DNA of 64,000 bases, from assembly GCA_023653095.1 (NCBI GenBank), contig JAMNXP010000005.1, positions 58,048 to 122,047 of the forward strand, given 5' to 3'. A program made the position numbers and the translations under genes. Positions 38,507 through 57,730 of the stretch are shown in pieces. How positions within the stretch are numbered: the stretch's first letter is position 1; every line of letters starts with the position of its first letter. The notes under the pieces are model-generated. The model saw only the letters and a program-made list of their open reading frames with translations, ran no database searches and was not told the DNA's origin. The DNA is from Bacteroidia bacterium (lineage in GTDB: Bacteria; Bacteroidota; Bacteroidia; NS11-12g; UBA955).

Positions 38507-38821
38507 CGGTAATCGGTTTTCGGTGGTCGGTTTTCGGTGGTCGGTTTTCGGTGATCGGTGATCAGCCGACAGACGATTAGTGTAGAGTGTAGAGTGTAGA
38601 GTGTAGAGTGTAGAGGCAGCGGTCAGCTTCGCTTGGCGGTCAGCTCTCAGCGGTCAGCGGTCAGCCGCGGCTTTGCCGCCAGCAGCTCTCAGCCTACAGC
38701 CTTCAGCGGTGGTTCTGACGCCAAGCAGCACCAAAGGTGCCAAGCAGCGCGAAGCGCAAGTCCTAGCGAAGCGCCAGTCATAAAGTCTCCGGCGCAGCCG
38801 TCAACTCTCAATCCTAAACTC
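38507..38821. repeat. Heptad (7-nt period) array, 45 in-register units
   Basis: Hand parse: cggtaat cggtttt cggtggt cggtttt ... ttagtgt agagtgt x4 ... tcagctc tcagcgg ... gcagccg tcaactc tcaatcc taaactc with no frame break. Confidence 0.88.
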
Positions 38822-39668
38822 TAAGGTAGCAGCAATCACTCTATTTCTTGCCCGTTTCAATATCAAATATTTCGTGTAGTTTTTGTTGTAAAATTTTCTT
38901 GTCAGGTAGTTTTGTTTTAATTCAGAAACCATTGTTGAAGAAAGGCTTCTACTCATAGCATATTCTACAACTTCACTATCTTTATCCTTGCACAATAGAA
39001 CTCCAATGCTAGGATTTTCATTTGGCTTTTTAAGGTTTCTGTCTAATGCTTCCAAGTAAAAGTTAATCTGACCCAAGTGTTCGGCTTTAAACTTGTCTGC
39101 TTTAAGTTCGAAAGCTACCAAGCATTGAAGCCCACGATGGTAAAAAAGCAGGTCAATATAAAAGTTGCTATTGCCAACTTGTAACTTGTATTCTTCTCTA
39201 AAAAATAAGTAATATTTTCCAAGTTCGAGAATGAAATTTTTCATTTGGCTTACAAGTCCACGCTATAAGTCGGTTTCACTGTGGTGGTCCGGCAAGTTCA
39301 AAAATTCAAACACATAGCTGTCTTTGAAGGTGTTAGAATTGTTTTTATTTCTTTCTCTGCTTGTTTGGTGTAGAAGCTGATTTTAAGTTCGTTTTCGGAA
39401 CGTAAAATTTCAAAATAATGACTCCAACTCAATACGTTAGACAGCGACTCACTTTTTGGGAAAGCCAGGTAAAGTTTTCTCATGTAAAGCAAGTTAGACC
39501 TACTAAATCCCTTCCCATATAATCGTGTAAGGTCCTTTGAAAGCTTCTCAAAAAGGAAACTTCCATATTCTGCCTTTTCCTTGCCTCCTTGCTCAAATTC
39601 AACGATGTTTCTGCCGATTAGCCAATAAGTCTGAACTAAAATAGTATTTACAGATTTAGCAACACGCT
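38801..39668 (-). pseudogene. Decayed YhcG/DUF1016 PDDEXK nuclease gene
   Basis: N-terminal VNTILVQTYWLIGRNIVEFEQGGKEKAEYGSFLFEKLSKDLTRLYGKGFSRSNLLYMRKLY; frameshift near 39300 (LNF/LPDHHSETDL) then in-frame TAG before RGLVSQMKNFILELGKYYLFFREEYKLQVGNSNFYIDLLFYHR. Confidence 0.85.
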
Positions 39669-39687: not shown

Positions 39688-40044
39688 TCACGACTGACGT
39701 TCGACTTCTAAAACCCTTAAAATGTCAGCATAATTCTGAGGCAAATGTTTGGTTGCAATGTCCCAAAGAATTTCATAGTCAATTCCAAAGTACTCGTGTG
39801 ATATTCTATTTCTTAATCTGTACATTTCTTCCCACGGAATATTCGAATATTTATCTTTTAACTGCCGAGGCAAATTTTTACTCGCTTCACCAATAATTTC
39901 GAAATTTCGGATTACTGCATCAACAGTCTTATAGTCCCACTTGAAATGTTGAAAGTCTAGTCCCTCAATGTATTCCTGAACTCTTGCCATAGACAATTGC
40001 ATGTCTTCCAAATAAAGAATTGGATCTCTTTCGCTCGGTTTCAA
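39688..40044 (-). CDS. hepT: HepT-like HEPN ribonuclease (DUF86)
   Basis: IIGEASKNLP, RLRNRISHEYFGIDYEILWDI (RX4-6H HEPN motif). Confidence 0.88.
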   Translation of the reverse strand: MKPSERDPILYLEDMQLSMARVQEYIEGLDFQHFKWDYKTVDAVIRNFEIIGEASKNLPRQLKDKYSNIPWEEMYRLRNRISHEYFGIDYEILWDIATKHLPQNYADILRVLEVERQS

Positions 40045-40331
40045 ATGTAGTGGACTTGGTTTAAAATAGGATCTTTGATTCTTTCTTTAAGAGCATTTTT
40101 TGTTACGAGGTCAATTGGGATTCCAAATGATTGTTCCAGAAAACGTTCAAGTGTAAAGAACTCCCAGCCGATTGGCTCTGAAAATTCAACAAGTATATCT
40201 AGGTCGCTACTTTCGTTTTGTTTATCATTTGCGAATGAGCCGAAATAGCCAATTTGACTAACGTGAAACTTGTAAGTAAGTTCCGGCTTTATTTGCCTTA
40301 ATTTAGTTTCTATTTCTGCTCTGGTCAACAT
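40041..40331 (-). CDS. mntA: MNT-type nucleotidyltransferase antitoxin
   Basis: GYFGSFANDKQNESSDLDILVEF (GSx10DxD); 4-bp overlap with hepT. Confidence 0.88.
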   Translation of the reverse strand: MLTRAEIETKLRQIKPELTYKFHVSQIGYFGSFANDKQNESSDLDILVEFSEPIGWEFFTLERFLEQSFGIPIDLVTKNALKERIKDPILNQVHYI

Positions 40332-40521
40332 ATATGCAATTTATGAAATTTTCTTGGATTACATTCTTAAGTTTATAGTCCATTTGCCGTGAACAAGCAA
40401 ATCTCATCATTGAATTGTTCAGAAATGCTTCATAATCAGTGTCGATTAAATAGGATTCTATTTCGACAATTGCATCAAGAATATGTTTCAACCGAGCATT
40501 GTCTCCCAATCTACCGCGCAT
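40303..40521 (-). pseudogene. Truncated HepT/DUF86 (N-terminal half only)
   Basis: RLKHILDAIVEIESYL...MMRFACSRQ then lost homology, no RX4-6H motif; runs into next mntA start. Confidence 0.7.
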
Positions 40522-40804
40522 AAATTAGCTTCTTTTCGTTGTCAACTATTGGCTTAATGTATTTTGACAGGCTGTTAGAAGAGACTAAGTCTACTTTCTT
40601 TTTAAGAATTCGCTCAAGATCTATCTGCATTTGAACGAAACCCAAACCGATCCTTTGAGAATAATCTAATTCGACTAAAATATCAATATCGCTTTGGTTG
40701 TCAGATTGTCCCCTAACATAAGAGCCAAATAAATATGCTTTAAGAACTGGTCGAGTTCTAAAGTACTCTTTGATGGCTTCTAAAGTTGGGTTGTCCAAAT
40801 ACAT
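40511..40804 (-). CDS. Second MNT-type nucleotidyltransferase
   Basis: LFGSYVRGQSDNQSDIDILVEL. Confidence 0.85.
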   Translation of the reverse strand: MYLDNPTLEAIKEYFRTRPVLKAYLFGSYVRGQSDNQSDIDILVELDYSQRIGLGFVQMQIDLERILKKKVDLVSSNSLSKYIKPIVDNEKKLIYAR

Positions 40805-40845: not shown

Positions 40846-40866
40846 TCAACTCTCAACCCTAAACTC
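40846..40866. repeat. Short 3-unit heptad patch tcaactc tcaaccc taaactc
   Basis: 20/21 identical to 38801-38821; overlaps stop and C-terminus of the adjacent CDS. Confidence 0.7.
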
Positions 40867-41808
40867 TATGCGCTCTGCGAGATTCACAATGTCTTCTGAA
40901 CGGGCGAGTTGCGATAACCAATGGGCGGGAATGGAGCTGAGGGGGTAAAAAAGTCCTGCAATTCCCCCGGTAACACATCCCACGGTATCGGTATCATCGC
41001 CGAGGTTCACCGCCTTGAGAACGGCATCCGAAAAGTTGGAGGTGTTCAGGAAGCACCACATGCTGGCTTCGAGAGTGTCAATCACAAATCCGGTGCTTTT
41101 TATTTCGGGGGACGCTAAACTGTCGAAATCTGCTGAAAGTAGCCGCTCGAAATAGGGCATGGTGCCTTCATCAGGGGATATGGTAGAGAGGAAATTCGTG
41201 AAGTTCAGGATGTGATTTTGGAATGCCTCTTCCTTGGTTTTGGCTTGGATGAGTTCGCGGGCGAATTCGGTGTAATAAAAGCAACTGATATAGGATAAGG
41301 CATGCGCATGAGTGATTTTGGACACTTCCGTGGTGATGCGAAAGCGCTCGTGGATGGGCAGATTGGCGGTGTAAAATGCTAAGGGCAAAGTACGCATGAG
41401 GGAACCATTTCCGTTGCTGTTGATGGTGTATTTGCCGCTAAATTTTGGTGAATGGCCATCGGCGAGTTTTTCCATGACTTCTTGGGTTGTAAGTCCAATA
41501 TCGAAAATGCTACCTCGTGCCGTCCAGAATCGCTCCTTGTACCATTTAAGAAAATAATGAGCTGTACGATCTAATTCATATCCTTCAATCAAACTTTCGG
41601 CAAGGCAAAACGCCATCGATGCATCGTCGGAAAAGGTACCTGGCACCTGCGAATGCGTTCCAAATCCCATAAAATCTGTCACCGGATGTTCAATCAGGTA
41701 TTCTCTTGGCTTAAACTCCACCGGAACCCCCATCGCATCACCAATGGCTAGGCCTAGGAAGGCAGATTTAATGGTGTTGGTGGCAATGATAATAGGAGCG
41801 TGAGGCAT
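40846..41808 (-). CDS. ADP-ribosylglycohydrolase family protein
   Basis: AFLGLAIGDAMGVPVEF, TFSDDASMAFCLAESLIEG, NLGDDTDTVGCVTGGIAGL. Confidence 0.92.
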   Translation of the reverse strand: MPHAPIIIATNTIKSAFLGLAIGDAMGVPVEFKPREYLIEHPVTDFMGFGTHSQVPGTFSDDASMAFCLAESLIEGYELDRTAHYFLKWYKERFWTARGSIFDIGLTTQEVMEKLADGHSPKFSGKYTINSNGNGSLMRTLPLAFYTANLPIHERFRITTEVSKITHAHALSYISCFYYTEFARELIQAKTKEEAFQNHILNFTNFLSTISPDEGTMPYFERLLSADFDSLASPEIKSTGFVIDTLEASMWCFLNTSNFSDAVLKAVNLGDDTDTVGCVTGGIAGLFYPLSSIPAHWLSQLARSEDIVNLAERIEFRVES

Positions 41809-42419: not shown

Positions 42420-42932
42420 TTAAAAATAGGATTTTACTAACCAACCAGCTACATAACCGTATTTAGTCTCAAGCTGATAATTGTAATTGTTAAAATGGCT
42501 GTAACTTACATAATACTAATCCCCAGATCGCTCAATAATAGTTAAACCTTCAAATGAAGAAACAGAATTTAAGATTGAGTAATTGGTTCCTGGACCCGAC
42601 CTTACGTTGATGGTAGATTTTGCATATACAAGTTGACCTCTACTATAAGATTGAATATATCGATAGTTTGATCTATTTCGAGTGCTAGGATAACTGTAAT
42701 TATAGTTATAAGAATTTCTTTCGGTTTTTGAGTATGTCTGATTTTCATAGCCCCATCTTACCCCGCAGTGTGGGCAATACATGCCAATTGTGGAATTTGA
42801 TGAAACACTGCCGCGGCATGACCCGCAGGACTTACTAGTTGTTGTGTAGGTGCTTTGGCTAAATGCTTTTTGGGATGCGGAGAAAAACAATGCGACAAAA
42901 AGCAGTAGAAATATATTTTTTAAATATATCAT
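42420..42932 (-). pseudogene. Exported zinc-ribbon + SH3 protein interrupted by in-frame TAG (ORF called 42516..42932)
   Basis: CGSCRGS...CPHCGVRWG; SH3 NVRSGPGTNYSILNSVSSFEGLTIIERSGD*YYVSYSHFNNYNYQLETKYGYVAGWLVKSYF read in one frame. Confidence 0.75.
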
Positions 42933-42938
42933 TTTTAA

Positions 42939-43724
42939 TTATTTATTGAATTCGGCTTCCGAAATTACATCCGTATCTAAATGATTGCCAATGCTATTAA
43001 TAACACTGAGTGAAAGTGAGTAGGAGGGAAAAGAAGTGACCTTGTTCTCTTTGCCATATTCATATTCAGTTGAATATTTTTTTCTAAAATCTAGTTCTTG
43101 TTCACCAATTTCATATTGGGCATTTTTCATGAATTTAACATGGCAATTGCCGTAATATATCTTTTTGCGATAATCATTGCCGTAGGCGATTTTTAAATAA
43201 TAAATACCTTCAGGTATGTTTTGCATGTTGTATGAGTCTCCAGATCTTATATACGCAATTCGTATACAGACATCTGATTGATTATAGAGCTTTACGATAC
43301 AGTCTGTATTGCCATGAACATTGATTTCCAGTTTGTTTTTCATGGAATAATCGTACAATGGTGAAATGTTAGAACAATCTGGCATACTTCCTGTATAACT
43401 GGTTGTTTTATTCCATCCCTCAGCTGGACGCAAATCAAGGAATTGCCCAATTATCCAGCCATCGGATCTGAAATTTCCATTGTTATCTTCAAAGTCTACA
43501 GGATACCAATTTCTATTCTTTTCATCTTTTTCGGCTTGGCCAGTAATTTCAACTTTAGTGCCTTTTTTTAAACTACAAATGGACTCATTAGAAACACTTG
43601 GACCATACCTAACATTAACAGTGGGACTATTGACATAAGCAGTTGTTGGTGCTTGCGAAAATGCGGTATTGGCAATAATGAATAGTGCCAATTTTACGAT
43701 AATTAGGGTTGTTTTTGATGACAT
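42939..43724 (-). CDS. Exported SH3-domain protein with C-terminal beta-rich domain
   Basis: Signal peptide; SPTVNVRYGPSVSNESICSLKKGTKVEITGQ...WYPVDF. Confidence 0.75.
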   Translation of the reverse strand: MSSKTTLIIVKLALFIIANTAFSQAPTTAYVNSPTVNVRYGPSVSNESICSLKKGTKVEITGQAEKDEKNRNWYPVDFEDNNGNFRSDGWIIGQFLDLRPAEGWNKTTSYTGSMPDCSNISPLYDYSMKNKLEINVHGNTDCIVKLYNQSDVCIRIAYIRSGDSYNMQNIPEGIYYLKIAYGNDYRKKIYYGNCHVKFMKNAQYEIGEQELDFRKKYSTEYEYGKENKVTSFPSYSLSLSVINSIGNHLDTDVISEAEFNK

Positions 43725-43736
43725 AATTTCAACTAT

Positions 43737-44225
43737 TTAAAATATCCTGAACTCAGGAATAGAATGTGAATTGAAGAAATCACTCTGAATTGTACTTAAA
43801 TAAGTTGGGCTGATAATGTCGTCTTCTAGATATTCTTCAAAATCAGGATGAACATTCATAATCAAGTCATTGCTTATTTTCAACTTGCTCTTGATTACTT
43901 TGAAAAACTTTATTTCACTGTATTCAATTTTATCATCTGCCTTGATGGTATCAATAGCAGTTTCGATGATTTTAAGTTCCTCTGCTTCAGAGAGGTCAGC
44001 ATTGGTTAAGTCTTGGAAATACATCTTCAAAAATCCATGACCTTCGTTATTGATCGAAACAACCATTGTTGTTAATTCTTCATTTAGATTGATGTCGCCA
44101 AAAATTTGCTTTTCGGAGTGCATTTTTCTGATCATTTCAATTTCTTTATTGTCAATTTCACCGTCACACGCCATGCAGGAAAATGCAGTTTTTAGTAGTA
44201 ATTGATTAAAACTTTCTTGTTCCAT
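43737..44225 (-). CDS. TerB-like protein
   Basis: FNQLLLKTAFSCMACDGEIDNKEIEMIRKM and second KADDKIEYSEIKFFKVI helix-acidic-loop pattern. Confidence 0.6.
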   Translation of the reverse strand: MEQESFNQLLLKTAFSCMACDGEIDNKEIEMIRKMHSEKQIFGDINLNEELTTMVVSINNEGHGFLKMYFQDLTNADLSEAEELKIIETAIDTIKADDKIEYSEIKFFKVIKSKLKISNDLIMNVHPDFEEYLEDDIISPTYLSTIQSDFFNSHSIPEFRIF

Positions 44226-44237
44226 AATTTTAATATT

Positions 44238-46004
44238 TTAAAATCCGATTTTATTAGGTTTGTTGGTATTGTCGTTGTTTCCGTCAAAATGAGATTGTAT
44301 ATCGGTATACCGTTTTAACTCGCTTCTTGAAAGTGAGGGTTTTTTCATTTCAATAGATTTATGAATCATTTCTGATGTAATTCTTGACTTTGCTTTTAAG
44401 GCCATTCTAGAAGCTTCATCGCACAAGAACTTGATATCGCTTGAAACATAATATTCAGTTGCATGTGCAAAGGATTGATAATTCATTCCAATTTCAATTG
44501 GTCGATCTTTTAGGTATAATTTGAACATCAATTCGCGAGCTTCCAAATCCGGAGGTGGGAGATAAATGTGTTTGTCTAATCTCCCTGCTCTTAAAATCGC
44601 TGGATCAATTGCGTTAGGTCTATTTGTTGCGCCAATTACGAAAACACCTTCGGCTCCAATGTTATTCATTTGGGCTAAAAACTCGTTCACAGCGCTTGTA
44701 TTCATGTGGTTAACTCCAGAATCATCCCGGTTTGGCACCAGTGCGTCTAATTCATCAATGAAAACGATACTTGGGGCATTTTTTCGGGCTTGATCAAAAA
44801 GATTTTTGATGTTTTCTTGGGACGCATTTACCCATTTACTTTGGATGTCTGAAGGTTTAATTTGGAAAAAGTCAAATCCAATTTCTTCAGCCAACTTTTC
44901 AGCAAAAAAGGTTTTACCACAACCTGGAGGGCCATAAAGTAACATGCCATTTGGGATTGTAAGACCGTACTCTCTGTATCTGTCTTTTTCGGTCAATGCG
45001 TCAATTACATCGAGTTTTAGAGTGTCCTTCAAATCTTGCATTCCAGCAATTGATTTAAATCCATCTCCCTTTTTTGTAATATTATTGGGAGTTTTTGTAT
45101 TTGTATCCTCAGAAATAATAGAATTTTCAAATTGAAACTCCCCGTTTAATGCCTTTATGAATTCATTGGTGCTTTGAAATCGACTTTCTGGTTGAAGGTG
45201 TAATGCTTTAGAAATTATTTCTATGGTTTCTGGGCTGATTTTATTATTGCTTTGTAATACTTTAAGGGGTTTTCTGCGTTCAGATAAAATTTGGTCTTCA
45301 ATTAATAGCGCGTCTGATTTATAATTTGATATCTCAAAAAACCAGGGAGTAATTCCAAACAATAAATGATAATAAAGTGCTCCCACAGAGAAAATATCAC
45401 CTTGAATTGAAAATACTAGATTGAATTTTTCACCAGCGGTATAAAAAGGATTTAATCCTATTTTATTGAAGTCTTTATTTGGTTGGCTTTGAAAACGGGC
45501 ATAACCAAAATCTATGATTTTTGGAACTGGAATTTTATTGGAAAGGTCCAACATGACATTCAAATTTGTAATGTCATTATGAATGATTGGATCGGCCTGA
45601 TTATGAAGGTAATTTAAACCATTGAGTACGCCAGATATGATGTCTTTTGCTTCATATGGATTTAAATTTTGTTCTCTTTTCATTTTATCTGAAAGAGTTT
45701 CACCACTAATGAAATCTAAAATTGCAAAGGCAAATTTTTGATTGTCAATTACCACATCTCCACTGTCGTGAAATTTAACAATGTTCGGATGATTTAATTT
45801 CTTTAGGATTTCAATTTCCACAATTTCTGCATTTGCATTAAATTGAGTTCTATGTAGTCTAGAGTAAAAAAACAGTTTTAGCAGTTTGATGTTATTGTTG
45901 CTATCTTTAACTCGATATGTTTCTGCGTAGCTTCCTCTTTTTAAGAAGAAGACAACGGTATATTTACCATTAATTGTCTGGCCTTGGGATAAAACGGAAT
46001 TCAC
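44238..46004 (-). CDS. Protein kinase-AAA+ ATPase (CDC48/Vps4-like) fusion
   Basis: Kinase: PIIHNDITNLNVMLDLS...KIIDFGYAR; AAA+: GMLLYGPPGCGKTFFAEKLAEEIG, PSIVFIDELDALVPNR, GATNRPNAIDPAILRAGRLD; GTG start. Confidence 0.88.
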   Translation of the reverse strand: MNSVLSQGQTINGKYTVVFFLKRGSYAETYRVKDSNNNIKLLKLFFYSRLHRTQFNANAEIVEIEILKKLNHPNIVKFHDSGDVVIDNQKFAFAILDFISGETLSDKMKREQNLNPYEAKDIISGVLNGLNYLHNQADPIIHNDITNLNVMLDLSNKIPVPKIIDFGYARFQSQPNKDFNKIGLNPFYTAGEKFNLVFSIQGDIFSVGALYYHLLFGITPWFFEISNYKSDALLIEDQILSERRKPLKVLQSNNKISPETIEIISKALHLQPESRFQSTNEFIKALNGEFQFENSIISEDTNTKTPNNITKKGDGFKSIAGMQDLKDTLKLDVIDALTEKDRYREYGLTIPNGMLLYGPPGCGKTFFAEKLAEEIGFDFFQIKPSDIQSKWVNASQENIKNLFDQARKNAPSIVFIDELDALVPNRDDSGVNHMNTSAVNEFLAQMNNIGAEGVFVIGATNRPNAIDPAILRAGRLDKHIYLPPPDLEARELMFKLYLKDRPIEIGMNYQSFAHATEYYVSSDIKFLCDEASRMALKAKSRITSEMIHKSIEMKKPSLSRSELKRYTDIQSHFDGNNDNTNKPNKIGF

Positions 46005-46018
46005 GATATTTTTTAATA

Positions 46019-47539
46019 TTAATGGTTAACGGTATTTTGGGCTACAATTAATTCAATTTCTTTTAGGGTATTGTGAAGATTTATTTGATTATTATTGGTG
46101 CTTATTTCATCATACAGTAGCTGAAAAAAAGTAGAGGTTATTATGTTTTCTTGTGCGAGTTGAAATATTAATTCTTCTATTTGAAATTGCTCTAAAGTTT
46201 GATTGTTCCGAATTGAATCTGAAATGCCAAGACTTTCTATAACAACGGATAATTTCTGCGGATCAATAATATGGCAACAAGTATTTTCAGCTTTTGTTGT
46301 AATCTGTCTACTTTCGTCTATATCTTCAATAGTCTTATTGTTAAGCCAGTTATAAAAGGATGTTCTATTTGTGTTTTGTTGCAATTGATGATTTAAATTT
46401 TCTGTTTCTGAAGTCCAATGTATTTTTGATGCATAAACAGCAGCACCTTCTGCAACTGCGGTGATTGGATCTAAGCTTGTATCAGGGGTGCAAATTTGTT
46501 TAGAGAGCATTTTTCTCAAAATAGGTGATATTGTAGGGCCACCTACAAGAATTAGGGATGATATAGACTTCTCATCCAGTCCATTTCGCTTTAATAGTGT
46601 TAACGAGATATCAATCGCTCTTTGAATTAAGGGCGCAATGACTAATTCTAAATCTTCACGATTAACAGAAATTTCCAATTCGAATTCACTGCCGTTGTCA
46701 TCTTCCCAGGGTATGTTACCTAAATTGGAGAGTATGGTAGTTGCTTCATTGAATGAAAGTTGTTCTTGAATTTCCTGAGCATAAAATTTCATTTCGTTCC
46801 GGATTTTTTTATTTTTTTCCGGATCCTCAAGCAGTTCGTCAACGGCATATTTCCGCTTCAAGTATGGAATTATGATATTATCTATTATTGCTTCAACAAG
46901 GGATTTATTTCCTAAATATTGATTACCCTCTGTATCTATAACTTTAATGCCTTCGTTATTTGTACTCAATAGAGTAGCGTCGAAAGTTCCCTCACAAAAA
47001 TGAAAAATCAGGTCAATTCCCACTTTTTCTTCTGACTTTGAATAATATAGATGACCTACTGCTTCGGCTTCTGAAATTATCTCACAATCATCAAAACCAG
47101 CCAATTTTGCGGCTTCTCGAGTATGTTCTATTTGGCTTTTTCCAAATTTGAATGGAACTGTAATCACTGCTGCAATTATAGTTTCATCTTTTTCGAATGA
47201 TTTAAGGGTCTTCAAGACCTCTGCCGATAATTCAATTGAGTTGAAAGATCGATTGGCATTTGAACTACAATATTTAAGATCAGACCCCATGGTTCGTGTG
47301 AATTCTATGAATGAATTGTCATTTTCAGTATTCCAATCTTTCATCGCACTCAATTTTTCTAGCTTATGAGCAGAGAAAGCCCCATCGCCGACATGCATTG
47401 CACCTTTTCGATTTATAAAAACCACCGTTGGCGTAAATGGTCTCAATGTGTTACTCCTTATTATCTGGGTAATACCGTTTTGAAATTTCACAATACTGGA
47501 ATTATATATTCCTAGATGAATTCCATAACTTGAGACCAT
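46019..47539 (-). CDS. Hsp70-like protein with degenerate nucleotide-binding motifs
   Basis: Aligns through NBD with the 48246..50804 product but GIHLGIYNSS replaces GIDLGTTNSA and FHFCEGTFD replaces FDFGGGTFD; no SBD-like tail. Confidence 0.85.
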   Translation of the reverse strand: MVSSYGIHLGIYNSSIVKFQNGITQIIRSNTLRPFTPTVVFINRKGAMHVGDGAFSAHKLEKLSAMKDWNTENDNSFIEFTRTMGSDLKYCSSNANRSFNSIELSAEVLKTLKSFEKDETIIAAVITVPFKFGKSQIEHTREAAKLAGFDDCEIISEAEAVGHLYYSKSEEKVGIDLIFHFCEGTFDATLLSTNNEGIKVIDTEGNQYLGNKSLVEAIIDNIIIPYLKRKYAVDELLEDPEKNKKIRNEMKFYAQEIQEQLSFNEATTILSNLGNIPWEDDNGSEFELEISVNREDLELVIAPLIQRAIDISLTLLKRNGLDEKSISSLILVGGPTISPILRKMLSKQICTPDTSLDPITAVAEGAAVYASKIHWTSETENLNHQLQQNTNRTSFYNWLNNKTIEDIDESRQITTKAENTCCHIIDPQKLSVVIESLGISDSIRNNQTLEQFQIEELIFQLAQENIITSTFFQLLYDEISTNNNQINLHNTLKEIELIVAQNTVNH

Positions 47540-47583
47540 TTTATATTGTATTTAATGTAGACTGTTCTTTGCAAAATTTTTAT

Positions 47584-48234
47584 TTACAATGCTTCATCTG
47601 GGTCACTTGGTAAGGTCTGGAAATTGCCGTTTGTTTGCAACTTTAGCTCGTAAGTTAGAGTTGAGTTTTGCAGTAATTGGGGTTCATCTTTACCAAATGC
47701 TTCATCAGTGATAAAGCCACCCTTGAGCTTGCCACCCTTCATTTCTTTGTTCGGATTCCACCCTTTGCCATAATAGAAAAACGCTTGGTAAGTTCCATCA
47801 GGAAAAGAAAAGGTATATTGGTCGCCTGAACTAATGTAGGCATGTCTGAATACCCTGCCATTTTTCTTGATTGTTACAACTACATCCGAATTGCTTGTTT
47901 GTACCTTGATTTGAGAACAACCATATGAATTACAACTACTGTTCCCTCCATAATACTTGGCGTATGGTGTTCTTCCTGTTGGTAGGGTATTGTTGATGTA
48001 TTTTTCATATTCAAGCTGCTCAATCCTCTTTCGCTCTGCCTCCGCTTCTTGTTCAATACGGAGACGTTCCATTTCTTGAGCTTGTCTTTCTTGTTCTACT
48101 ATATCCAGCTGTTCAAGCCTAGTCGCTTCTTGTTCCTCTTCGTATAATCTAAGTTTTCTTTGAGCATCGCTTTCACATGATGTTAAAAACCCTACATTTA
48201 ATAATAGTAAAAGTGAGATTGTGTATCTTTTCAT
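47584..48234 (-). CDS. Coiled-coil lipoprotein with beta-rich C-terminal domain
   Basis: Lipobox GFLTSC; EEEQEATRLEQLDIVEQERQAQEMERLRIEQEAEAERKRIEQ coil. Confidence 0.7.
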   Translation of the reverse strand: MKRYTISLLLLLNVGFLTSCESDAQRKLRLYEEEQEATRLEQLDIVEQERQAQEMERLRIEQEAEAERKRIEQLEYEKYINNTLPTGRTPYAKYYGGNSSCNSYGCSQIKVQTSNSDVVVTIKKNGRVFRHAYISSGDQYTFSFPDGTYQAFFYYGKGWNPNKEMKGGKLKGGFITDEAFGKDEPQLLQNSTLTYELKLQTNGNFQTLPSDPDEAL

Positions 48235-48245
48235 AACTTTAATTA

Positions 48246-50804
48246 TTAACCTCTTAGAACTCCTATTGGAGGACCGCCAGGCCCTCCGTCTTTGGGGCCA
48301 TTTTCTCCATAGCCAGCATTATCAAAAATATCGTTGACAATCGGTTGAAGGTTATCAATTGTGGGTGAGTCATAAATGATATTTTTACCTTGGTCAACAG
48401 TTATTCTTGCTGATCTCCTGTCTTTCCAGTTGATCTCATTGAAATCTCTATCATGCCACAAAATAAACGCCATTAAATGTTCAATTCTCTCTAATTCAAA
48501 TGCAACAGAATTTATCATTTTGATTAGTTCTGGAGTATTCTTCTTATCCTGATCCTTGATTGCTTGTTCCACATTTGCTCTTATTTCATTGACCTTATGA
48601 GCAGTGTGTTCATTTCCTTTTTTCTTGTTAACATCTTCTAATTTATGAAATGCTGCCTTGAGCTCTTTTTCTAACTTAGGCCATTCGCTTTCTTCTTCAA
48701 TGCTATCTACAGATTTTAAAACTTTCCGCAAATTTTCCAAAGTCTGTTGTTGGTTATCTGGGGATATTTTGTCTCTTTCAAATTGGATTTTAATATTTTC
48801 TAATTCTACTTCTATCTTTTTAAATTCATCTTCATCTCCAATTGTTCCTTTGGATTTCAATTGTTTAATTGAATCTAATCCTTTGTCGATTTCCGATGTA
48901 AGTAAAGTAGCCATATCAGTCCCGGTTTTATCTGTATTTGTCTCGCATATGAAATAATGAGTATGGTCTAAATAGGGGAAAATGGCTTTGCCGTGGATCA
49001 CCTGATTTATATCAACTTTTAATTCTACATCAACATCACTATTTGCCGGCAATAGAGCAGGAAGATCATTTCCTGTAATATAAATTGTATTCACGTGATG
49101 ATTGTAAATAGCTCTGGACCTGTCAACATTATGTTCTCCTTGATATATGGCAATTTTCAAATAGTCAGAGGCCATTCCAGGGCGAATTTGTGAAGGTGTT
49201 TTCAAATTAGGCTTAACGCCAACAGCAGGCAACTGTTTTGATTTAGTAAGTCCTTCAACTACACGGAATTCTAGTTTTCCAGTATTTATGTCTTGAATCT
49301 CAATTCCGATATTGTATGGTAAGACAGCATTTCCTCCCTTACTACCTTGTATAATATTGAAGCTCGATGGTTCACATTCTAATTTGTTACCTGTGTCGTC
49401 AAATAGGGTGATTTCAAAATTATTTAATTTGCCAGAAATTAGCTGTACAGAAATGATTTCTCCCAATTCGTTTATGGAAACACTGCCACTGGACCAGCCA
49501 CCATCTTGACGACTAATATGAACAAATAATTTATCTGGTATTTTATTTTCGGTTTTTTCTTTCAGTATTTTAACGACAACATGCTCTTCCAATTCAACCG
49601 TTGCTGATTCATGGTTAATTTCCAATTGTATTTTTGTTGGGTTAAATACCGTGGTTTCTTGGTTCCGCTTAATGGTGGAGGCATAAATTGCGGCACCTTT
49701 TGCTACAGCAGTCATTGGATCAACGCTTGTATCTGGAGTGCAAATTTGTTGAGAAAGCATTTTTCTCAATATTGGTGACATCGTAGGGCCACCTACAAGA
49801 ATTAGAGAGGATAATGATTTACCATCCAAGCCATTTCGCTTTAATAGGGTTAACGAGATATCAATCGCTCTCTGGAATAAAGGCGCAATGGCAACTTCTA
49901 ATTCTTCACGGTTAACAGTTATTTCTAATTCGAATTCATTGCCGTTGTCATCCTCCCCTGGAATGTCGCCTAAATTGGTGAGTATGATAGTTACTTCGCT
50001 GAAAGAAAGTTGTTTTTTAATTTCCTCAGCATAGAACTTCATTGCGTTCCGAATGATTTTATTTTTGTTTGAATCTTTCAGGAGTTCATCAATGTCAAAA
50101 TTTTCCTGAAGATATGGAATTATAATACTGTCAACAATCGCTTCGTCAAGGTTTTTACCTCCTAGATAATTGTCTCCTTCCGTATCTATAACTTGTCTGA
50201 TTCCATCGGTTACTCTGAGTAGGGCAGAATCAAAAGTTCCCCCTCCAAAGTCAAAGACGAGCCAATAACCATCTTTTTTATCTCCATTGAAACCATAAAC
50301 CCATGCCGCTGCTTCTGGTTCTGTGATAATCTCTACTTGGTCAAAGCCAGCTAATTTACCCGCTTGTCGGGTATGCTCAATTTGATTGCTTTTGAATGCA
50401 GCAGGAACAGTAATAACAGCTGTGTTTATAGTTTCATCTTTCTCAAATGATTTAAGGGTCTTCAAGACCTCTGCCGATAACTCAATTGAGTTGAAAGATC
50501 GATTGGCATTTGAACTTTTATACTGAGCATCAGACCCCATGGTACGTTTGAATTCTATGTAAGAATTGTCATTTTCAGCATTCCAATCCTTCATCGCATT
50601 CAATTTTTCTGCCTTAAGTGCATTAAAAGCAGCGTCACCAACTTGCATTGCACCTTTTCTATTTACATACACACAAGAAGGCATTGTGTCTTTTAGTGTA
50701 TTGCTTCTTACACTTTCTGAGGTTCCGTTGTTGATTTTGGAAATGGCAGAATTGGTGGTGCCTAAGTCTATGCCAAAGTCAACGGTTGTTCTACTTTTTG
50801 TCAT
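48246..50804 (-). CDS. Hsp70 (DnaK-like) chaperone with atypical long C-terminus
   Basis: DFGIDLGTTNSAISK, AVITVPAAFKSNQIEHTRQAGKLAGF, EPEAAAWVYGF, VFDFGGGTFD, LILVGGPTMSPILRKML. Confidence 0.92.
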   Translation of the reverse strand: MTKSRTTVDFGIDLGTTNSAISKINNGTSESVRSNTLKDTMPSCVYVNRKGAMQVGDAAFNALKAEKLNAMKDWNAENDNSYIEFKRTMGSDAQYKSSNANRSFNSIELSAEVLKTLKSFEKDETINTAVITVPAAFKSNQIEHTRQAGKLAGFDQVEIITEPEAAAWVYGFNGDKKDGYWLVFDFGGGTFDSALLRVTDGIRQVIDTEGDNYLGGKNLDEAIVDSIIIPYLQENFDIDELLKDSNKNKIIRNAMKFYAEEIKKQLSFSEVTIILTNLGDIPGEDDNGNEFELEITVNREELEVAIAPLFQRAIDISLTLLKRNGLDGKSLSSLILVGGPTMSPILRKMLSQQICTPDTSVDPMTAVAKGAAIYASTIKRNQETTVFNPTKIQLEINHESATVELEEHVVVKILKEKTENKIPDKLFVHISRQDGGWSSGSVSINELGEIISVQLISGKLNNFEITLFDDTGNKLECEPSSFNIIQGSKGGNAVLPYNIGIEIQDINTGKLEFRVVEGLTKSKQLPAVGVKPNLKTPSQIRPGMASDYLKIAIYQGEHNVDRSRAIYNHHVNTIYITGNDLPALLPANSDVDVELKVDINQVIHGKAIFPYLDHTHYFICETNTDKTGTDMATLLTSEIDKGLDSIKQLKSKGTIGDEDEFKKIEVELENIKIQFERDKISPDNQQQTLENLRKVLKSVDSIEEESEWPKLEKELKAAFHKLEDVNKKKGNEHTAHKVNEIRANVEQAIKDQDKKNTPELIKMINSVAFELERIEHLMAFILWHDRDFNEINWKDRRSARITVDQGKNIIYDSPTIDNLQPIVNDIFDNAGYGENGPKDGGPGGPPIGVLRG

Positions 50805-50827
50805 TCGTTAATGTTTTTATTGTTAAA

Positions 50828-51766
50828 TTATTCACCTATACTTACTTCAATTTGAGCAGATTGAATCATTTTCCCATTGAAATTTACTTGTGGTTTTATG
50901 ACACGTGTGATTATTCTTTTACCAACTTCAATTGAATCACTTGGGATAAAGTTTGCGGTAACATTCATGCCTTCGTTGTATTCTAATTCCAGCATTTCAA
51001 CAATTTCATAACCTTTGGCCAAATAATTTTCTTTAATGCTTTTTACGGCACTTTTGAGTTGCTTAAGGCCTTTGGTATTTGGATCCATTCGATAGTGATT
51101 GGTCTCCATAGCAGTTAGACGGTCAGCTATTTTTAGAACTAATGAATGGTCCTCAGTCGAACTTTCATTGCCTTTTTCTCGGATGAGCTCAATTTGTTGT
51201 TCGAGAATTTTAACCAATTGACCATCAAGTTTTAAACTTTCTTCCTCTAAGGCCGTTTTTGTTTTAAGGATTTGTGTTTCAATAGCAGATTTATTTGATT
51301 TGATTATTTTATTTATCTGGAGAAACATAAAGGATCCCAATAGCACAATCAATAAACTTCCTCCAACCCAATAAACACTATTTGTTTGGAGGTTATTGTC
51401 TATCTTATCAATTTGGTTTTTTGTGGCAGAAGTTGTTGTATCAATTTTTAATCCTAATTCTTTTGAAATAGTATTTAAATTTTGATTTATTAAAAGAGTT
51501 TTTTGAAGTAAACTATCATATTTTAGTTCACTATTAGTCAATTTTGATTCAACAGTCTTTAACTGTTTTTTTAACTTAGATATTTCAATTGAATGCTCTT
51601 TTAATGCGATTTTCTGCTGATCAAAGTCTATTTTTCCTTCAATCTTTAATGAACTAACCTTGGAAATGGCTTGGATTGACCTATTTGGATTTGCTGCTAG
51701 ACTGAAATTAAAAGTTGAAAAGGAAATCAACCATAAAATTAGTGATGGTATAAATGTGTTTTTCAT
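50828..51766 (-). CDS. Membrane-anchored coiled-coil protein with GrpE-like C-terminal beta-wing
   Basis: Signal peptide, central TM (YWVGGSLLIVLLGSFMFLQ), C-terminal GYEIVEMLELEYNEGMNVTANFIPSDSIEVGKRIITRVIKPQVNFNGKMIQSAQIEVSIGE resembling the GrpE C-terminal domain. Confidence 0.65.
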   Translation of the reverse strand: MKNTFIPSLILWLISFSTFNFSLAANPNRSIQAISKVSSLKIEGKIDFDQQKIALKEHSIEISKLKKQLKTVESKLTNSELKYDSLLQKTLLINQNLNTISKELGLKIDTTTSATKNQIDKIDNNLQTNSVYWVGGSLLIVLLGSFMFLQINKIIKSNKSAIETQILKTKTALEEESLKLDGQLVKILEQQIELIREKGNESSTEDHSLVLKIADRLTAMETNHYRMDPNTKGLKQLKSAVKSIKENYLAKGYEIVEMLELEYNEGMNVTANFIPSDSIEVGKRIITRVIKPQVNFNGKMIQSAQIEVSIGE

Positions 51767-51771
51767 GTTGT

Positions 51772-53280
51772 TTAATTTTTTAAGTTAATGTTTACCCAAA
51801 CTAATAGGCTGATAATAAGTATTGCAGCAGCCCAACCAGCGCCGAATGCGGCCCAAACAATCAATACTATAGCAATAAATACCAATAGTAACTGAAAGTA
51901 GAAAATTCTATCTTGTTCTTCTTTCTTTTTACGTTCTTCTTCTTTTTCTTTTCTCTTTAATTCTTCATCTTGTTTGCGTTTTTCCTCCGCAATTACAAAT
52001 GGATGCGTATTGGGCAAGTGGGCAACAAATTTGTTGATAATCACAAATATTTCTAGACTAGCACCGTTTTTTCGAATGTAATCAGCTAATTCGATGAAAT
52101 TAGTGATGTACTCACTTCTATCAGTAGATGCGATTTTTTGTAAAACAGAGTTCGTTATTTCTTTCCTCAAGAACTCATCTACTTTAAAAATATTTAATTG
52201 TTTGGTATAATCTCGGTTGGTATCAATAATGATTTCCTTTAGTCGTTTTAAAATTTCTAAAGCAAAAAGTATATCAGAATATTTTAGGTCATCTAACTCC
52301 TTGAGATTCGAATCAATACGTTCAATGGTTACCGATGTTTTTGCAATTTGTTTTGCAGATTTTAATAATTCGATCGATTTTTTAATGGATAAATCACTTT
52401 TATCTCCTTTTGAATATGAGTCTATTCCGCATTGAATAATTTCTTTGGCAACATTGTCAGAAATCATTCTGTACTGCAAGTTGTTTTGGCCTAAAAGATT
52501 ATGAATTAAGTTTAAACCTTCGCGAGATTTATTGAGTAAATCCTTGCCATATAAGTAACCATCTTTTGGACTGTTTTTGCGTTTTGATTTTGTGTCTTCA
52601 ATTAATAGTTGAATTTCATGTAATGGCCCTTCGGTAAATTTTTTATTTATGTATGTAATTACATTCTGAGAGGAGTTATTAAATAGGTTTGCAATTTGGA
52701 CGCGATCAAATCGAGGAAGTAAACCAATTAATATGTCATCTATGAATTTTTCAAGTTGTTGCTGATTTGTAAAAGTGTAGGTTTGGGCATCACCAACATT
52801 CTTTACGAAATCAATAAAATTTTCTGATTCAATTAACTTGATTTTGAATTCTAAACCTTCTTTTATTTCATCTATGGTATTACTTAATAATTTTAATGTG
52901 CCGATATTATTGAAATATGAGAAGTTTTTAGAACTAAGTTCTTTTCCAGACGTAACTTTTGTCCAAATTTCAATCGCTTTATTCTTGTCACCATTTTTCA
53001 AATAGTTCAGAGCGGTACCGTCAAAATTGTTAACCTCAATAAACCAGAATAACGAGTTATTTATTTTGTCTTGATTTATTTCGATTTTAGTTGAAGCTTG
53101 AACTACCGTTGATTCATTTAATTGAATGGGGGTTAAAAAACTAAAATTATAATGGGAGTCATAGGATCGCCCAATGCTCAAGTTTTTTATTATAAGACTT
53201 TTTCTATTTTGAATCTCCCTTTCTGAAGAATTGGCCAACAAGCCCAAGATTCTGTAAGGATTATTCTCTATTAACTCCAT
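51772..53280 (-). CDS. J-like N-terminal domain protein with C-terminal TM helices
   Basis: ENNPYRILGLLANSSEREIQNRKSLIIKNL; NSLFWFIEVNNFDGTALNYLKNGDKNKAIEIW; KRKEKEEERKKKEEQ then two TM segments. Confidence 0.65.
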   Translation of the reverse strand: MELIENNPYRILGLLANSSEREIQNRKSLIIKNLSIGRSYDSHYNFSFLTPIQLNESTVVQASTKIEINQDKINNSLFWFIEVNNFDGTALNYLKNGDKNKAIEIWTKVTSGKELSSKNFSYFNNIGTLKLLSNTIDEIKEGLEFKIKLIESENFIDFVKNVGDAQTYTFTNQQQLEKFIDDILIGLLPRFDRVQIANLFNNSSQNVITYINKKFTEGPLHEIQLLIEDTKSKRKNSPKDGYLYGKDLLNKSREGLNLIHNLLGQNNLQYRMISDNVAKEIIQCGIDSYSKGDKSDLSIKKSIELLKSAKQIAKTSVTIERIDSNLKELDDLKYSDILFALEILKRLKEIIIDTNRDYTKQLNIFKVDEFLRKEITNSVLQKIASTDRSEYITNFIELADYIRKNGASLEIFVIINKFVAHLPNTHPFVIAEEKRKQDEELKRKEKEEERKKKEEQDRIFYFQLLLVFIAIVLIVWAAFGAGWAAAILIISLLVWVNINLKN

Positions 53281-53372
53281 AGATGTGTTTCGCGTTTAAT
53301 GTTATGGTATAAGTTTAGTTTCGAGGGGACTTTCAAGATTTAAAACATGAATAATGCCTGGTTGTGAAAGTG

Positions 53373-54383
53373 TTATTTTTGACTTTGGATGGATTGATCC
53401 AACTCCTTGGTCATGTTGTTAATCGTGTGAATTCGTGTGTAGATTTGATATTCTAAAAGTTTTTCTAAATCGGTTTTTTGACCGTAAACTTTAGTGAATA
53501 CCACCAATAATTCGAGACTCAGTAAAAAGATGAAAACAAGAATATAAACAATTAGTGCGATTCTAGAATCTCTTAAAATTCCAATCATAAGTGAGAGTTC
53601 ATCTAAAAATCCTCTATTTTCTTCCAATTCTTTTTTAATGTTTTCATACAGATTTATTTTTTCGTCTTCTATTTTGCTAATCATATTATTTAAAAGCACA
53701 ATCTGCTGGCTGATTCTTTTTTTATCTTCGAATGCCGGATTGGTAATTTGAGTTCGATTGGTTTGTGTGACAGGTAATAAATTCAAATCTATATTTAGCT
53801 GTTCCTTGTCAATATCTTTTGGAATTTGTTTGCGGGTTGTCGACTCTGATATCACATTAATCAAAGGATTTTTGTTTAATTCGTCGGTTAATACTTGCTC
53901 CTTGCTTTTTTGCTCTTGCAATTGAATTTCCAGCTCGTTTTTGCGATTTTCGAGCTGCTTAGATTGGGAGGTTGTTATTTTTGTGGCTTCTTCGCCAACA
54001 ATCATGGTTTTTCTTTTATCGAGGTCATCAGAGTAAATGATTTGGTCCAAAATAAGTGAACCAATAATTGACATGACAATAGCCAGAGTGACACGGAAGC
54101 CTACGACTGCTCTATTTGAACTATTCGCCAAAATGATTTGGCGCTCAATTTGGATGACTATAAATGCAAGAATACATGCAGTGGCGATACTCGCAAATGT
54201 GCTCACATCCAAGTATCTGTGTGCAAATGAAAAGCCTACTAAAAACCAAAGAATAGAAATGATGAACAAACCTGCCAAATACTGTTTTATCTTCCCTTTG
54301 GCGGCTTCACTGCAGGTATTCAATAATTGGTAATTGAATCCGGTCAAAAAACAACCGAATTTTAAAATTCTATTTTCAATCAT
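53373..54383 (-). CDS. DUF4407-like membrane protein
   Basis: About four TM helices with an intervening coiled-coil; FLTGFNYQLLNTCSEAAKGKIKQYLAGLFIISILWFLVGFSFAHRY. Confidence 0.75.
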   Translation of the reverse strand: MIENRILKFGCFLTGFNYQLLNTCSEAAKGKIKQYLAGLFIISILWFLVGFSFAHRYLDVSTFASIATACILAFIVIQIERQIILANSSNRAVVGFRVTLAIVMSIIGSLILDQIIYSDDLDKRKTMIVGEEATKITTSQSKQLENRKNELEIQLQEQKSKEQVLTDELNKNPLINVISESTTRKQIPKDIDKEQLNIDLNLLPVTQTNRTQITNPAFEDKKRISQQIVLLNNMISKIEDEKINLYENIKKELEENRGFLDELSLMIGILRDSRIALIVYILVFIFLLSLELLVVFTKVYGQKTDLEKLLEYQIYTRIHTINNMTKELDQSIQSQK

Positions 54384-54384
54384 T

Positions 54385-54978
54385 TTAGTTCAAGAATTTT
54401 GAAACTGAAATTGCATTTAATCCTCTCAAAAAACCTTTATTGTAGGAGAGTAGGATACGTTTTAGTGCACCTGATCCATTAGGTATTTCTGATTTGAACT
54501 TATTTAATTGATCAACATGGGTTTTGAGTTTTACCGTATGCTGTTTTAACTCTTCCACTAGATCTATGAGGCCCGCTTTTGACCTTGTATTGATGTGGAA
54601 TTCAATCTCATTTAATTTGTCGCTATATGTTAATAATAGTTGATCTACCTTAAGTTCAAAATCTATGGTTAAAAACTCTAAGTTGTCCTTACGATAACTA
54701 TCGTCAGGATTTGCAAGGGCATCATTGAATCCATTTTCTTCCCAATTATTTTGGAGGAATAAATACAAACCTTCAATGTCAATTATTTTATCGTTGATTG
54801 AATGTGTTTGTTTTTGATTAGAATTAGCAACGGTATCAAAATTTGTAATTTTAGGAGTCTCATTAAGTTCAGATTGGTTAGATTTCTCAATGAATAAATC
54901 CTCCGGAATATCATTATTAGATTGATTTTCGGTAGGGGCAGGTACTGTGGATTTGTTTAAAAAACTGAATATTGACAT
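54385..54978 (-). CDS. Hypothetical cluster protein
   Basis: ORF packed between DUF4407 and HNH genes with 1-bp spacing. Confidence 0.6.
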   Translation of the reverse strand: MSIFSFLNKSTVPAPTENQSNNDIPEDLFIEKSNQSELNETPKITNFDTVANSNQKQTHSINDKIIDIEGLYLFLQNNWEENGFNDALANPDDSYRKDNLEFLTIDFELKVDQLLLTYSDKLNEIEFHINTRSKAGLIDLVEELKQHTVKLKTHVDQLNKFKSEIPNGSGALKRILLSYNKGFLRGLNAISVSKFLN

Positions 54979-54979
54979 G

Positions 54980-55333
54980 TTATTTTTTTATTATCGGAAC
55001 TTCGTACTTAGTGTGTCCTAACCCATGGCATTTTTTGCATAAGGTTACAAGTAAAGGGTTGCTGTATTCCCAAGGTTCAACGAATCTTCCAAGTTCTGAA
55101 TTGAAATGGTATTGCCTGTGATGAACTTGCAAGTCTTCGCCGGTTCCACAATTTCTACACTTGTTATTGTCTCGCTGAAGAATTTCTTGACGTTTGTTCT
55201 TCCATTCGATTTTGAACAGCGCTTCTTTGTAGCCACCGTGTTTTAAAGGTAAACTGACTGAGTATTGTGTATTGCTTTTAACCTCATTAATGCTGTTTTT
55301 TTGGCGATTTTTAAGTATATACCTTGATTTCAT
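54980..55333 (-). CDS. HNH-type zinc protein
   Basis: QEILQRDNNKCRNCGTGEDLQVHHRQYH...LLVTLCKKCHGLGH; ATG at 55333 (ORF track start is a TTG). Confidence 0.75.
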   Translation of the reverse strand: MKSRYILKNRQKNSINEVKSNTQYSVSLPLKHGGYKEALFKIEWKNKRQEILQRDNNKCRNCGTGEDLQVHHRQYHFNSELGRFVEPWEYSNPLLVTLCKKCHGLGHTKYEVPIIKK

Positions 55334-55369
55334 TAGGCGTAAAAGCAATTATAGTCGAGCACCAAAACT

Positions 55370-55450: not shown

Positions 55451-55831
55451 ATGGAAAAAGATATCAAATACGAACGACCTTCGACAATAAGAATCATCAG
55501 AGAAAGTAATGGGTTTTCACAAGAATATGTGGCTTCGAAACTAGAAATTACACAACAAGCATATTCCAATATTGAGAAAAATCCTGAAAATGCTTCAGTG
55601 AAGCGACTAAAGCAGATTTCATCTATTTTTTCTGTTCCGGTTACAAGTTTAATTGGTGAGTCTGAGCATTACGTTCAGCAGAATTTTCAACAGCAAGGTG
55701 GGCAAGCTGCAACAATTATTCATGTACAAGGAATGCCTGAAAATGAGAGACAACTTTACGAGCGGTTGATTGAGGAAATGAAATCGGAAATTCAATTGCT
55801 CAAGTCAATGCTAGAAGTGAAGTCGAATTAA
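55451..55831 (+). CDS. XRE-family HTH regulator
   Basis: TIRIIRESNGFSQEYVASKLEITQQAYSNIEKNPENASVKRLKQISSIF. Confidence 0.92.
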   Translation: MEKDIKYERPSTIRIIRESNGFSQEYVASKLEITQQAYSNIEKNPENASVKRLKQISSIFSVPVTSLIGESEHYVQQNFQQQGGQAATIIHVQGMPENERQLYERLIEEMKSEIQLLKSMLEVKSN

Positions 55832-55953: not shown

Positions 55954-56244
55954 TTATTTCTCATCCCTCTTGTAAAACGCGCTGAATAAAAGTCCTAAGC
56001 CAATAATAACATCGATGATGTTCCAGAGTTCGCGGCCAAAAGCAAGTTTGAAAAACGGTTGAAACATGAGGGCGAGAGCCCCGAAAATGAACATTTCGGT
56101 TTCGCGGCCCTCTTGGTTGGACTTGTAAGCAAGAATGCCGAAGCCAATCATGCTCGCGAACCTAACGAATTGATAATAGCCGTAAGGCATGTCTGCCAAA
56201 CATATAAACAATAGGGCTGCAAGGGCGATTTTCAGGATTTTCAT
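55954..56244 (-). CDS. DUF6804-like membrane protein
   Basis: ADMPYGYYQFVRFASMIGFGILAY...FQPFFKLAFGRELWNIIDVIIG. Confidence 0.75.
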   Translation of the reverse strand: MKILKIALAALLFICLADMPYGYYQFVRFASMIGFGILAYKSNQEGRETEMFIFGALALMFQPFFKLAFGRELWNIIDVIIGLGLLFSAFYKRDEK

Positions 56245-56331
56245 ATTCAGCAATTTAAATAAAAAAGTAAATTGACGTGTATTTCTTTGAAATTTAACGG
56301 TAATTTCCCCATCAGGATTTTTAACAACCAC

Positions 56332-57139: not shown

Positions 57140-57730
57140 ATGGCAAAAGCAACGCAAAAAATCAAGATAATGGTCGGCTCTACGGTATATGGCTTTGAAG
57201 ACCAGCTTTCGCAGATTGTGGCTCAGTTGCAATTGCTTGATTATGAAGTCATTAACTCTTATAGTGGAAGTGTTAAAGTAAACCCTATTTTATCTAATTT
57301 AGATAATTGTCTCAATGCAGTAAAAGAATGTGATTTGTTTTTAGGCATCATTCGGCCATATTATGGCACGGGCAATATTGGCGAAAAGAACATCACTTTC
57401 GAGGAAATAAAATTAGCCATTAAACTCAAAAAGCCTTACTGGTTTTTAGTGCATCGAGATGTTGTTTTCTCCCGGTTGCTTTTTAGTAAATTGAAACTGA
57501 AGTCTGGCGATGAAATTGTGATAGAACCTAATCGCTTTTTTGATAAACGTACCATTGAAATTTATGATTATATAATCAAGAATCATGAACGGATAACAAT
57601 GCGTAATGGAAATTGGGCGCAGGAGTTTTACCGACTTGATGAAATGATGACTTACATCAATACACAATTTTCTGATTCGGATTTTGTTCAAAATATTCTT
57701 AATGAAAAAATGGTAAAAAATGGAAAATAG
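57140..57730 (+). CDS. DUF4062 domain protein
   Basis: KIMVGSTVYGFEDQLSQIVAQLQLLDYEVINS...ECDLFLGIIRPYYGTG...ITFEEIKLAIKLKKPYWFLVH. Confidence 0.82.
   Translation: MAKATQKIKIMVGSTVYGFEDQLSQIVAQLQLLDYEVINSYSGSVKVNPILSNLDNCLNAVKECDLFLGIIRPYYGTGNIGEKNITFEEIKLAIKLKKPYWFLVHRDVVFSRLLFSKLKLKSGDEIVIEPNRFFDKRTIEIYDYIIKNHERITMRNGNWAQEFYRLDEMMTYINTQFSDSDFVQNILNEKMVKNGK

Follow-up and report, generated by a model that had tools for sequence, protein, structure and literature searches.

What does a bacterial protein do that joins a Ser/Thr-kinase-like domain to a AAA+ ATPase, next to genes for Hsp70s, and does phosphorylation lie at the heart of it? This question is raised by one gene in a 64,000-nucleotide stretch of a Bacteroidia bacterium contig (JAMNXP010000005.1, hereafter "the window"), for which an initial annotation, made from the letters alone, had proposed a signal-gated unfoldase coupling phosphorylation to protein remodelling.

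A single gene encodes a kinase-like fold and a classic AAA+ domain

The fusion gene and its main parts are as follows (all positions refer to the window).

44238..46004, minus strand: kinase-AAA fusion gene, 588 aa, GTG start, one continuous ORF
45135..45977, minus strand: Ser/Thr-kinase-like domain, aa 10-290 (PF00069, PDB kinase matches and model)
45573-45581, minus strand: HND motif, aa 142-144
45504-45512, minus strand: DFG motif, aa 165-167
44334..45062, minus strand: classic AAA+ domain and lid, aa 315-557 (PF00004, superposition on p97 D2)
44910-44933, minus strand: Walker A, GPPGCGKT, aa 358-365
44826-44840, minus strand: pore loop, SKWVN
44241..44249, minus strand: conserved C-terminal tail, Ile-Gly-Phe, aa 586-588, preceded by a linker that varies

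The coordinates first proposed for a single ORF are exact, and the strand, which had not been given, is the minus strand, a plus-strand reading of 44238-46004 being ruled out by stops throughout. Because the ORF is continuous, there is no hidden frameshift of the kind that the initial annotation had named as a risk, and two genes joined by frameshift or misassembly are excluded by the single frame found here and in ~40 relatives: the order of kinase then AAA is unbroken in 41 homologues (36-70% identity to the window protein). Overall, 59 fusion loci were recovered when each GTDB species was represented by a single genome, most of them covering the whole query at 35-70% identity, with full-length fusions in many Bacteroidota families as well as in Shewanella, Endozoicomonas and a relative of Melioribacter. 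Phage records searched with the kinase-AAA protein returned AAA-level matches only, none full-length. As first remarked, the combination of a kinase fold and a CDC48-like AAA+ domain in one protein, encoded beside Hsp70s, is a rare architecture.

The N-terminal part matches PF00069 (Pkinase) over aa 23-278 (E 1.5e-34, 120 bits vs. a cut-off of 31.7) and, by sequence, PDB kinases (E 5e-22), including CDPK, DAPK and PknB chains. An AlphaFold2 model built from a 42-sequence alignment (the window protein and proteins of related loci) agrees with the kinase fold originally suggested, aa 1-290 being bilobal and kinase-like at a pLDDT of ~92 (mostly 90-97, with 73-86 around residues 171-260). For the whole protein (mean pLDDT 83, pTM 0.52) it is uncertain how the two domains are arranged relative to each other, and the linker (aa 295-311) and last residues are predicted to be disordered. 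HND in place of HRD, the intact DFG and the loosely conserved Gly-loop are all as first read, and the window protein also keeps K43 (the VAIK lysine), E63 (alpha-C), N149 and D203. The fold together with K43, E63, D144, N149 and D165 is that of a eukaryotic-like Ser/Thr kinase, and in the window protein this domain probably retains catalytic competence as a non-RD kinase.

The C-terminal part matches PF00004 (AAA) over aa 354-483 (E 5.7e-40; pLDDT mostly 66-94 for aa 312-570). It carries the motifs reported initially (GPPGCGKT 358-365, FIDELD 415-420, GATNRP with N461, and R472/R475). Walker A/B, sensor-1 Asn, Arg fingers and pore loop, the full set of the classic AAA+ clade, are all present. 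K364, D417, E418, N461, R472 and R475 are invariant in every aligned row having that column, and the pore-loop residue 391 is W, F or Y in all cassette-type rows having it. The top structural matches in the PDB are p97, CDC48 and NVL (Foldseek), with p97 D2 (3cf0) superposed at a TM-score of 0.85 by target and 3.0 A. The label "CDC48/Vps4-type" is thus fair for the fold but not for a family assignment: CDC48 is the nearest curated model (TIGR01243, 190.9 bits vs. a cut-off of 802.65) with FtsH nearly level (TIGR01241, 188.2 bits vs. 600), and both scores are far under the family cut-offs. Broadly speaking, the domain has the AAA fold, Walker A/B, sensor-1 Asn, double Arg finger and pore-loop aromatic in common with CDC48/p97, Vps4, FtsH and PAN, and differs from them in its single AAA ring, its kinase-like N-domain instead of a CDC48 N-domain, and the absence of a protease domain; its score stays well short of the cut-off in every family model.

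The fusion gene belongs to a conserved chaperone cassette

The fusion gene sits within a gene run (42516-55348) that lies entirely on the minus strand with gaps of 1-92 nt. The other genes of this run and two that lie beyond its head are listed below.

42516..43724, minus strand: two SH3_3 (bacterial SH3) secreted proteins, PF08239 E 4e-8 and 1e-4, at the end of the run
43737..44225, minus strand: TerB-like protein, 162 aa, 12 nt downstream of the fusion gene
46019..47539, minus strand: second, short Hsp70-like protein, 506 aa, mostly nucleotide-binding domain, PF00012 E 4.7e-37
47584..48234, minus strand: predicted lipoprotein accessory, LTSC lipobox (by eye)
48246..50804, minus strand: divergent Hsp70, 852 aa, cassette core, PF00012 E 8e-58
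50828..51766, minus strand: membrane coiled-coil protein, 312 aa, cassette core, C-terminus most conserved
51772..53280, minus strand: J-domain-like all-helical protein, 502 aa, cassette core, C-terminal TM region
53373..54383, minus strand: DUF4407 membrane protein, PF14362 E 5e-35, upstream in the run
54385..55348, minus strand: 197-aa uncharacterised protein and 122-aa HNH-like protein (NCBIfam IscB, weak, 3.9e-5), head of the run
55451..55831, plus strand: divergent HTH regulator, PF01381 E 7.5e-12, adjoining the run
55954..56331, minus strand: DUF6804 small membrane protein, PF20619 E 4.7e-35, elsewhere often right after TerB

The island is flanked by a HepT-like/MNT-type pair (39688-40331; PF01934, PF01909), a second MNT gene (40511-40804), a YhcG PDDEXK fragment (38801-39244) and an ADP-ribosylglycohydrolase gene (40846-41808), with genes for a DUF4062 protein and a Schlafen/AlbA_2 ATPase-like regulator (57140-59144) just beyond it.

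Clustering of the flanking ORFs revealed a near-constant gene order across loci, namely J-like protein, membrane coiled-coil protein, divergent Hsp70, accessories, kinase-AAA, TerB-like protein and DUF6804, in which the lipoprotein, SH3 protein, second Hsp70 and a KilA-N protein are optional accessories; DUF4407 is absent from these clusters and hence not conserved elsewhere. Counted over the 31 non-rumen loci having at least 7 kb of upstream sequence, the divergent Hsp70 is always present, the J-like and membrane coiled-coil proteins are found at 30/31, DUF6804 at 23/31 and the TerB-like protein at 20/31. The adjacency to Hsp70 first noticed in the window is therefore conserved (31/31). Five loci outside this defining set (L086 and L127-L130, one of them on a plasmid) have the Hsp70 and J-like protein in every case and the membrane protein in four. 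The window fusion gene is one gene of a mobile cassette, which goes beyond what the initial annotation had in view. No description of this cassette was found in the open-access literature searched, and an earlier one in a subscription paper is possible.

The 852-aa Hsp70 has an intact nucleotide-binding domain with GTTNS, GGGTFD and VGGP, a diverged substrate-binding-like region (match to the DnaK SBD profile, hhalign single-target E 6e-4 over 182 columns) and a helical tail. For the J-like protein, the helix pattern and the NPYRI.GI start resemble a J domain and a profile match points to weak DnaJ similarity; the HPD motif that a J domain carries between helices II and III is missing from the aligned N-termini, Pfam finds no J domain among all its relatives, and a fold search with its model returned nothing beyond generic helical repeats. 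The TerB-like protein scores below the Pfam TerB cut-off (PF05099 E 0.002, 18.8 bits vs. 24.4), and a plasmid relative is annotated as TerB family. The second Hsp70 has degenerate phosphate motifs (GIHLGIYNS, FHFCEGTFD), lacks the length to contain a complete peptide-binding part, and may be a pseudo-chaperone partner of the first. The lipoprotein has 16 homologues among the cassette loci (about half of them), nearly all encoded between Hsp70 and fusion gene, and its family has a highly conserved C-terminal part (GNSxCxxxGCSQIKVRTSNSDV...FFYYGKGW).

The cassette is mobile and found among defence genes

A full-length match to the fusion protein was detected in 0/70 other genomes of the family and in 6/396 genomes of the phylum, these six being from as many genera. 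GC content over 42-56 kb is 0.31-0.36 (about 0.33), as against 0.37-0.48 (about 0.41) elsewhere in the window. On a Haliscomenobacter plasmid the cassette has SIR2/WD40 genes on one side and a BREX locus on the other, and in the tree the gamma-proteobacterial members nest among Bacteroidota (support 83/74). One virus-classed contig (L134) holds a full cassette, whose kinase-AAA protein has the IGF tail, and two others hold a related set (L135:2059-8783 and L136:2448-8801) with homologous J-like (hhalign E 1e-13) and membrane proteins (5e-9) and an AAA domain 45-49% identical. In both variants the ~250 N-terminal residues before the AAA domain contain no recognisable kinase; because the comparison with a kinase gave no support (hhalign E 0.23), "degenerate kinase" would be only a guess. 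The L136 variant lies among genes that look, by eye, like those for a phage tail or baseplate, and phage records gave no match to an L136 query. The Aminobacter plasmid pAM01 (L217:6106-11544) encodes an Hsp70 28% identical to that of the cassette, preceded by two uncharacterised genes and followed by an integrase; a kinase-AAA gene is undetectable within 20 kb, and this set is a broken or different version of the cassette.

In the cassette flanks, 126 proteins matched 133 PADLOC models, as compared to 21 models for 106 control proteins, these being redundant model counts rather than gene counts. The control proteins were drawn at set positions from other members of the phylum sample, with no matching to variable regions, and their matches are confined to a small number of genes for helicases or regulators. 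Matches in the flanks include type I restriction, DrmA/DrmD, SspE, AbiEii, HmaA and BrxH, and Pfam adds integrases, relaxases, MobC, resolvases, transposases, GmrSD and ResIII. Restriction, DISARM and GmrSD genes are among the neighbours of the cassette. Such flanking genes are typical of variable genome regions generally, and defence company does not prove defence.

PADLOC has no model covering the cassette Hsp70 or membrane protein, and reaches the J-like protein only at E 0.004. Its closest AAA model is IetA (E 3.6e-34 over aa 332-557), a match that excludes the kinase domain; the NCBIfam IteA score is 103 bits vs. a cut-off of 510, and the subtilisin-like IetS protease that stands beside IetA has no counterpart in the cassette run or among the scanned neighbours. 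The closest kinase models are MAD6 of MADS (3e-38) and PD-T4-6 (4e-36), where the matched part is without an AAA domain, and the window run has no other MADS gene. As set out in part of Kaur et al. (2020; PMC7159879), GAP1-N2 GTPase conflict systems comprise Hsp70, GrpE and DnaJ operons, some with kinases, and resemble the cassette in their Hsp70, extra Hsp70 without peptide-binding domain and J-domain protein; in that part, they differ in having a core GTPase with an FNIII partner and no classic AAA-kinase fusion, while the cassette has no GTPase. Type III-A CoCoNuTs (PMC11090510) are defence operons that likewise combine kinases with Hsp70-like parts and may include a p97/CDC48-like SpoVK ATPase. 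Their core is an McrB GTPase with a HEPN RNase, and their kinase is fused to a zinc ribbon instead of to AAA; none of these distinguishing parts was found in the cassette. Membership in MADS, IetAS, CoCoNuT or GAP1-N2 is excluded by these missing partners. A precedent for chaperone-dependent phage detection is bNACHT25 (PMC12169576), which senses through DnaJ, although this NACHT protein uses the host DnaJ and has no dedicated cassette.

An Hsp70-coupled unfoldase as a candidate motor

We lean towards a reading in which the fusion protein is an Hsp70-coupled pore-threading unfoldase, the motor of a mobile chaperone cassette serving defence first and protein-stress tolerance second. The membrane-anchored J-like protein and the coiled-coil membrane protein would place the divergent Hsp70 at the membrane, and the Hsp70 would capture a client and hand it over to the kinase-AAA protein, which would form a hexamer, powered by ATP and bearing aromatic pore loops, and would pull the client through its pore, leading to unfolding or disassembly. 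The kinase-like domain would be a nucleotide- or phosphorylation-responsive switch, or a docking module, on this motor, roles that seem most likely because it is positioned like the substrate-recognition N-domains of CDC48-type proteins. Of the unfoldase beside Hsp70s proposed initially, the core is supported by the constant Hsp70 linkage and the retained pore-loop, Walker, sensor and arginine-finger residues; gating by phosphorylation, as it was stated, does not. As to the role, we infer that it is most likely protection, against phage in the first place and protein stress in the second, defence being the likelier of the two because of where the cassette is found.

A rumen clade encodes the kinase-AAA protein beside ClpP

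Eleven rumen Bacteroidales loci (L052-L060, L062 and L064) form one tight clade in the tree (support 100/100) and have a different gene context. In all eleven, a YbjN-like (TY-Chap1) protein is encoded 3-10 nt upstream of the kinase-AAA gene and ClpP 5-67 nt downstream; this ClpP is the only strong one in the five genomes checked. HtpG is usually next door to the trio, on the opposite strand. A replacement of ClpX is ruled out by its presence in 8/8 rumen genomes checked (away from ClpP in the three inspected). With two such unlike contexts, i.e., the Hsp70 cassette and the YbjN-like/ClpP pair, the kinase-AAA protein is tied twice to protein handling, and the rumen context is a separate link to proteostasis that speaks for the chaperone-coupled unfoldase.

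The seemingly housekeeping setting of the rumen clade, with ClpP, a YbjN-like chaperone and HtpG, fits the possibility that the same machine serves proteostasis in general, as an island on mobile DNA encoding a disaggregase or a quality-control system close to the membrane, and provides stress tolerance and not phage defence. Stress islands with extra chaperones occur in bacteria, and every constant partner in the cassette is a chaperone-type or membrane protein. We consider this possible but not probable, since the cassette is sporadic and lies among restriction, BREX, DISARM and mobility genes.

A more doubtful proposal is that the AAA ring is an unfoldase for ClpP, engaging it via the tail in the cassette type and, in the rumen clade, by pairing directly with the ClpP encoded next door. 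A [LIV]G[FL] tripeptide forms the ClpP-docking loop of ClpX and ClpA, which the IGF tail resembles. An [ILVF]GF lies inside the last 9 residues of 41/42 cassette-type homologues (in the remaining one a stop breaks the sequence), and among six further homologues it is found in four (L086, L129, L130 and L134) and absent in the most distant two (L127 and L128). ClpP is encoded elsewhere in the genome of the window's host. However, the rumen proteins adjoining ClpP end in VVQGL or IVQSL, and because of this the tail is a possible lead for ClpP docking rather than a demonstration. The cassette moreover has no peptidase, its gamma-proteobacterial members are without the tail, a three-residue tail has many possible uses, and all eight rumen genomes have ClpX.

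Kinase catalysis is not conserved with the motor

Returning to the preferred reading of a chaperone-coupled motor, the state of its kinase-like domain varies between lineages. Most cassette members, though not every one, retain K43, E63, D144, N149 and D165, and across the orthologous group the catalytic residues are not kept, being lost in L047, L048 and L061. At the kinase positions the Melioribacter homologue has HNN and GFE, that of Endozoicomonas Q, CNH and NFD, and that of Shewanella R, CNN and NYD, and HNE replaces HND in five further homologues (L009, L039, L042, L043 and L045). By these substitutions the Melioribacter, Endozoicomonas and Shewanella proteins are predicted pseudokinases. 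The two gamma-proteobacterial proteins group together in the tree, separate from Melioribacter, which suggests that the kinase residues were probably lost at least twice.

Set against the invariant AAA site, these losses indicate that the motor is, as read from the alignment, constrained more strictly than kinase catalysis, and point to the kinase fold as a regulatory or docking module. With pseudokinases in some lineages phosphorylation cannot be obligatory, which rules it out as the key conserved activity. The coupling of phosphorylation to remodelling proposed initially thus fails as a general mechanism, given the three pseudokinase lineages, the five HNE proteins and the variants on two virus-classed contigs in which a kinase is not recognisable.

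That the kinase is itself the effector, with AAA domain and Hsp70 sensing infection and releasing it to phosphorylate proteins of the host or the phage, the presumed action of PD-T4-6- or MAD6-like kinases, would suit its nearest PADLOC models and the residues intact in most members, but is improbable given pseudokinases in lineages with a complete cassette core and two more loci without recognisable kinase.

Implications

The boldest form of the favoured reading, which we regard as unlikely though worth stating, is a mobile immune machine with a complete chaperone line of its own, running from a J-like anchor through Hsp70 to a CDC48-like unfoldase gated by its kinase, which would dismantle viral protein assemblies, possibly handing them to the host ClpP via the IGF tail, and the related kinase-unfoldase of rumen Bacteroidales would be a second ClpP partner. 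If the pairing in the rumen clade is read correctly, a kinase-AAA protein beside the only ClpP suggests an unrecognised partner of this peptidase. For the cassette as a whole, the chaperone-coupled motor would, if true, mean a transferable, self-contained Hsp70 and AAA+ remodelling machine whose motor bears a kinase-like domain, and an uncommon anti-phage or anti-stress route in which proteins are taken apart rather than nucleic acid cut. It would also provide a bacterial parallel to the Hsp70- and p97-based protein handling of eukaryotes, and a tractable case of an active kinase repeatedly turned pseudokinase while the motor stayed intact.
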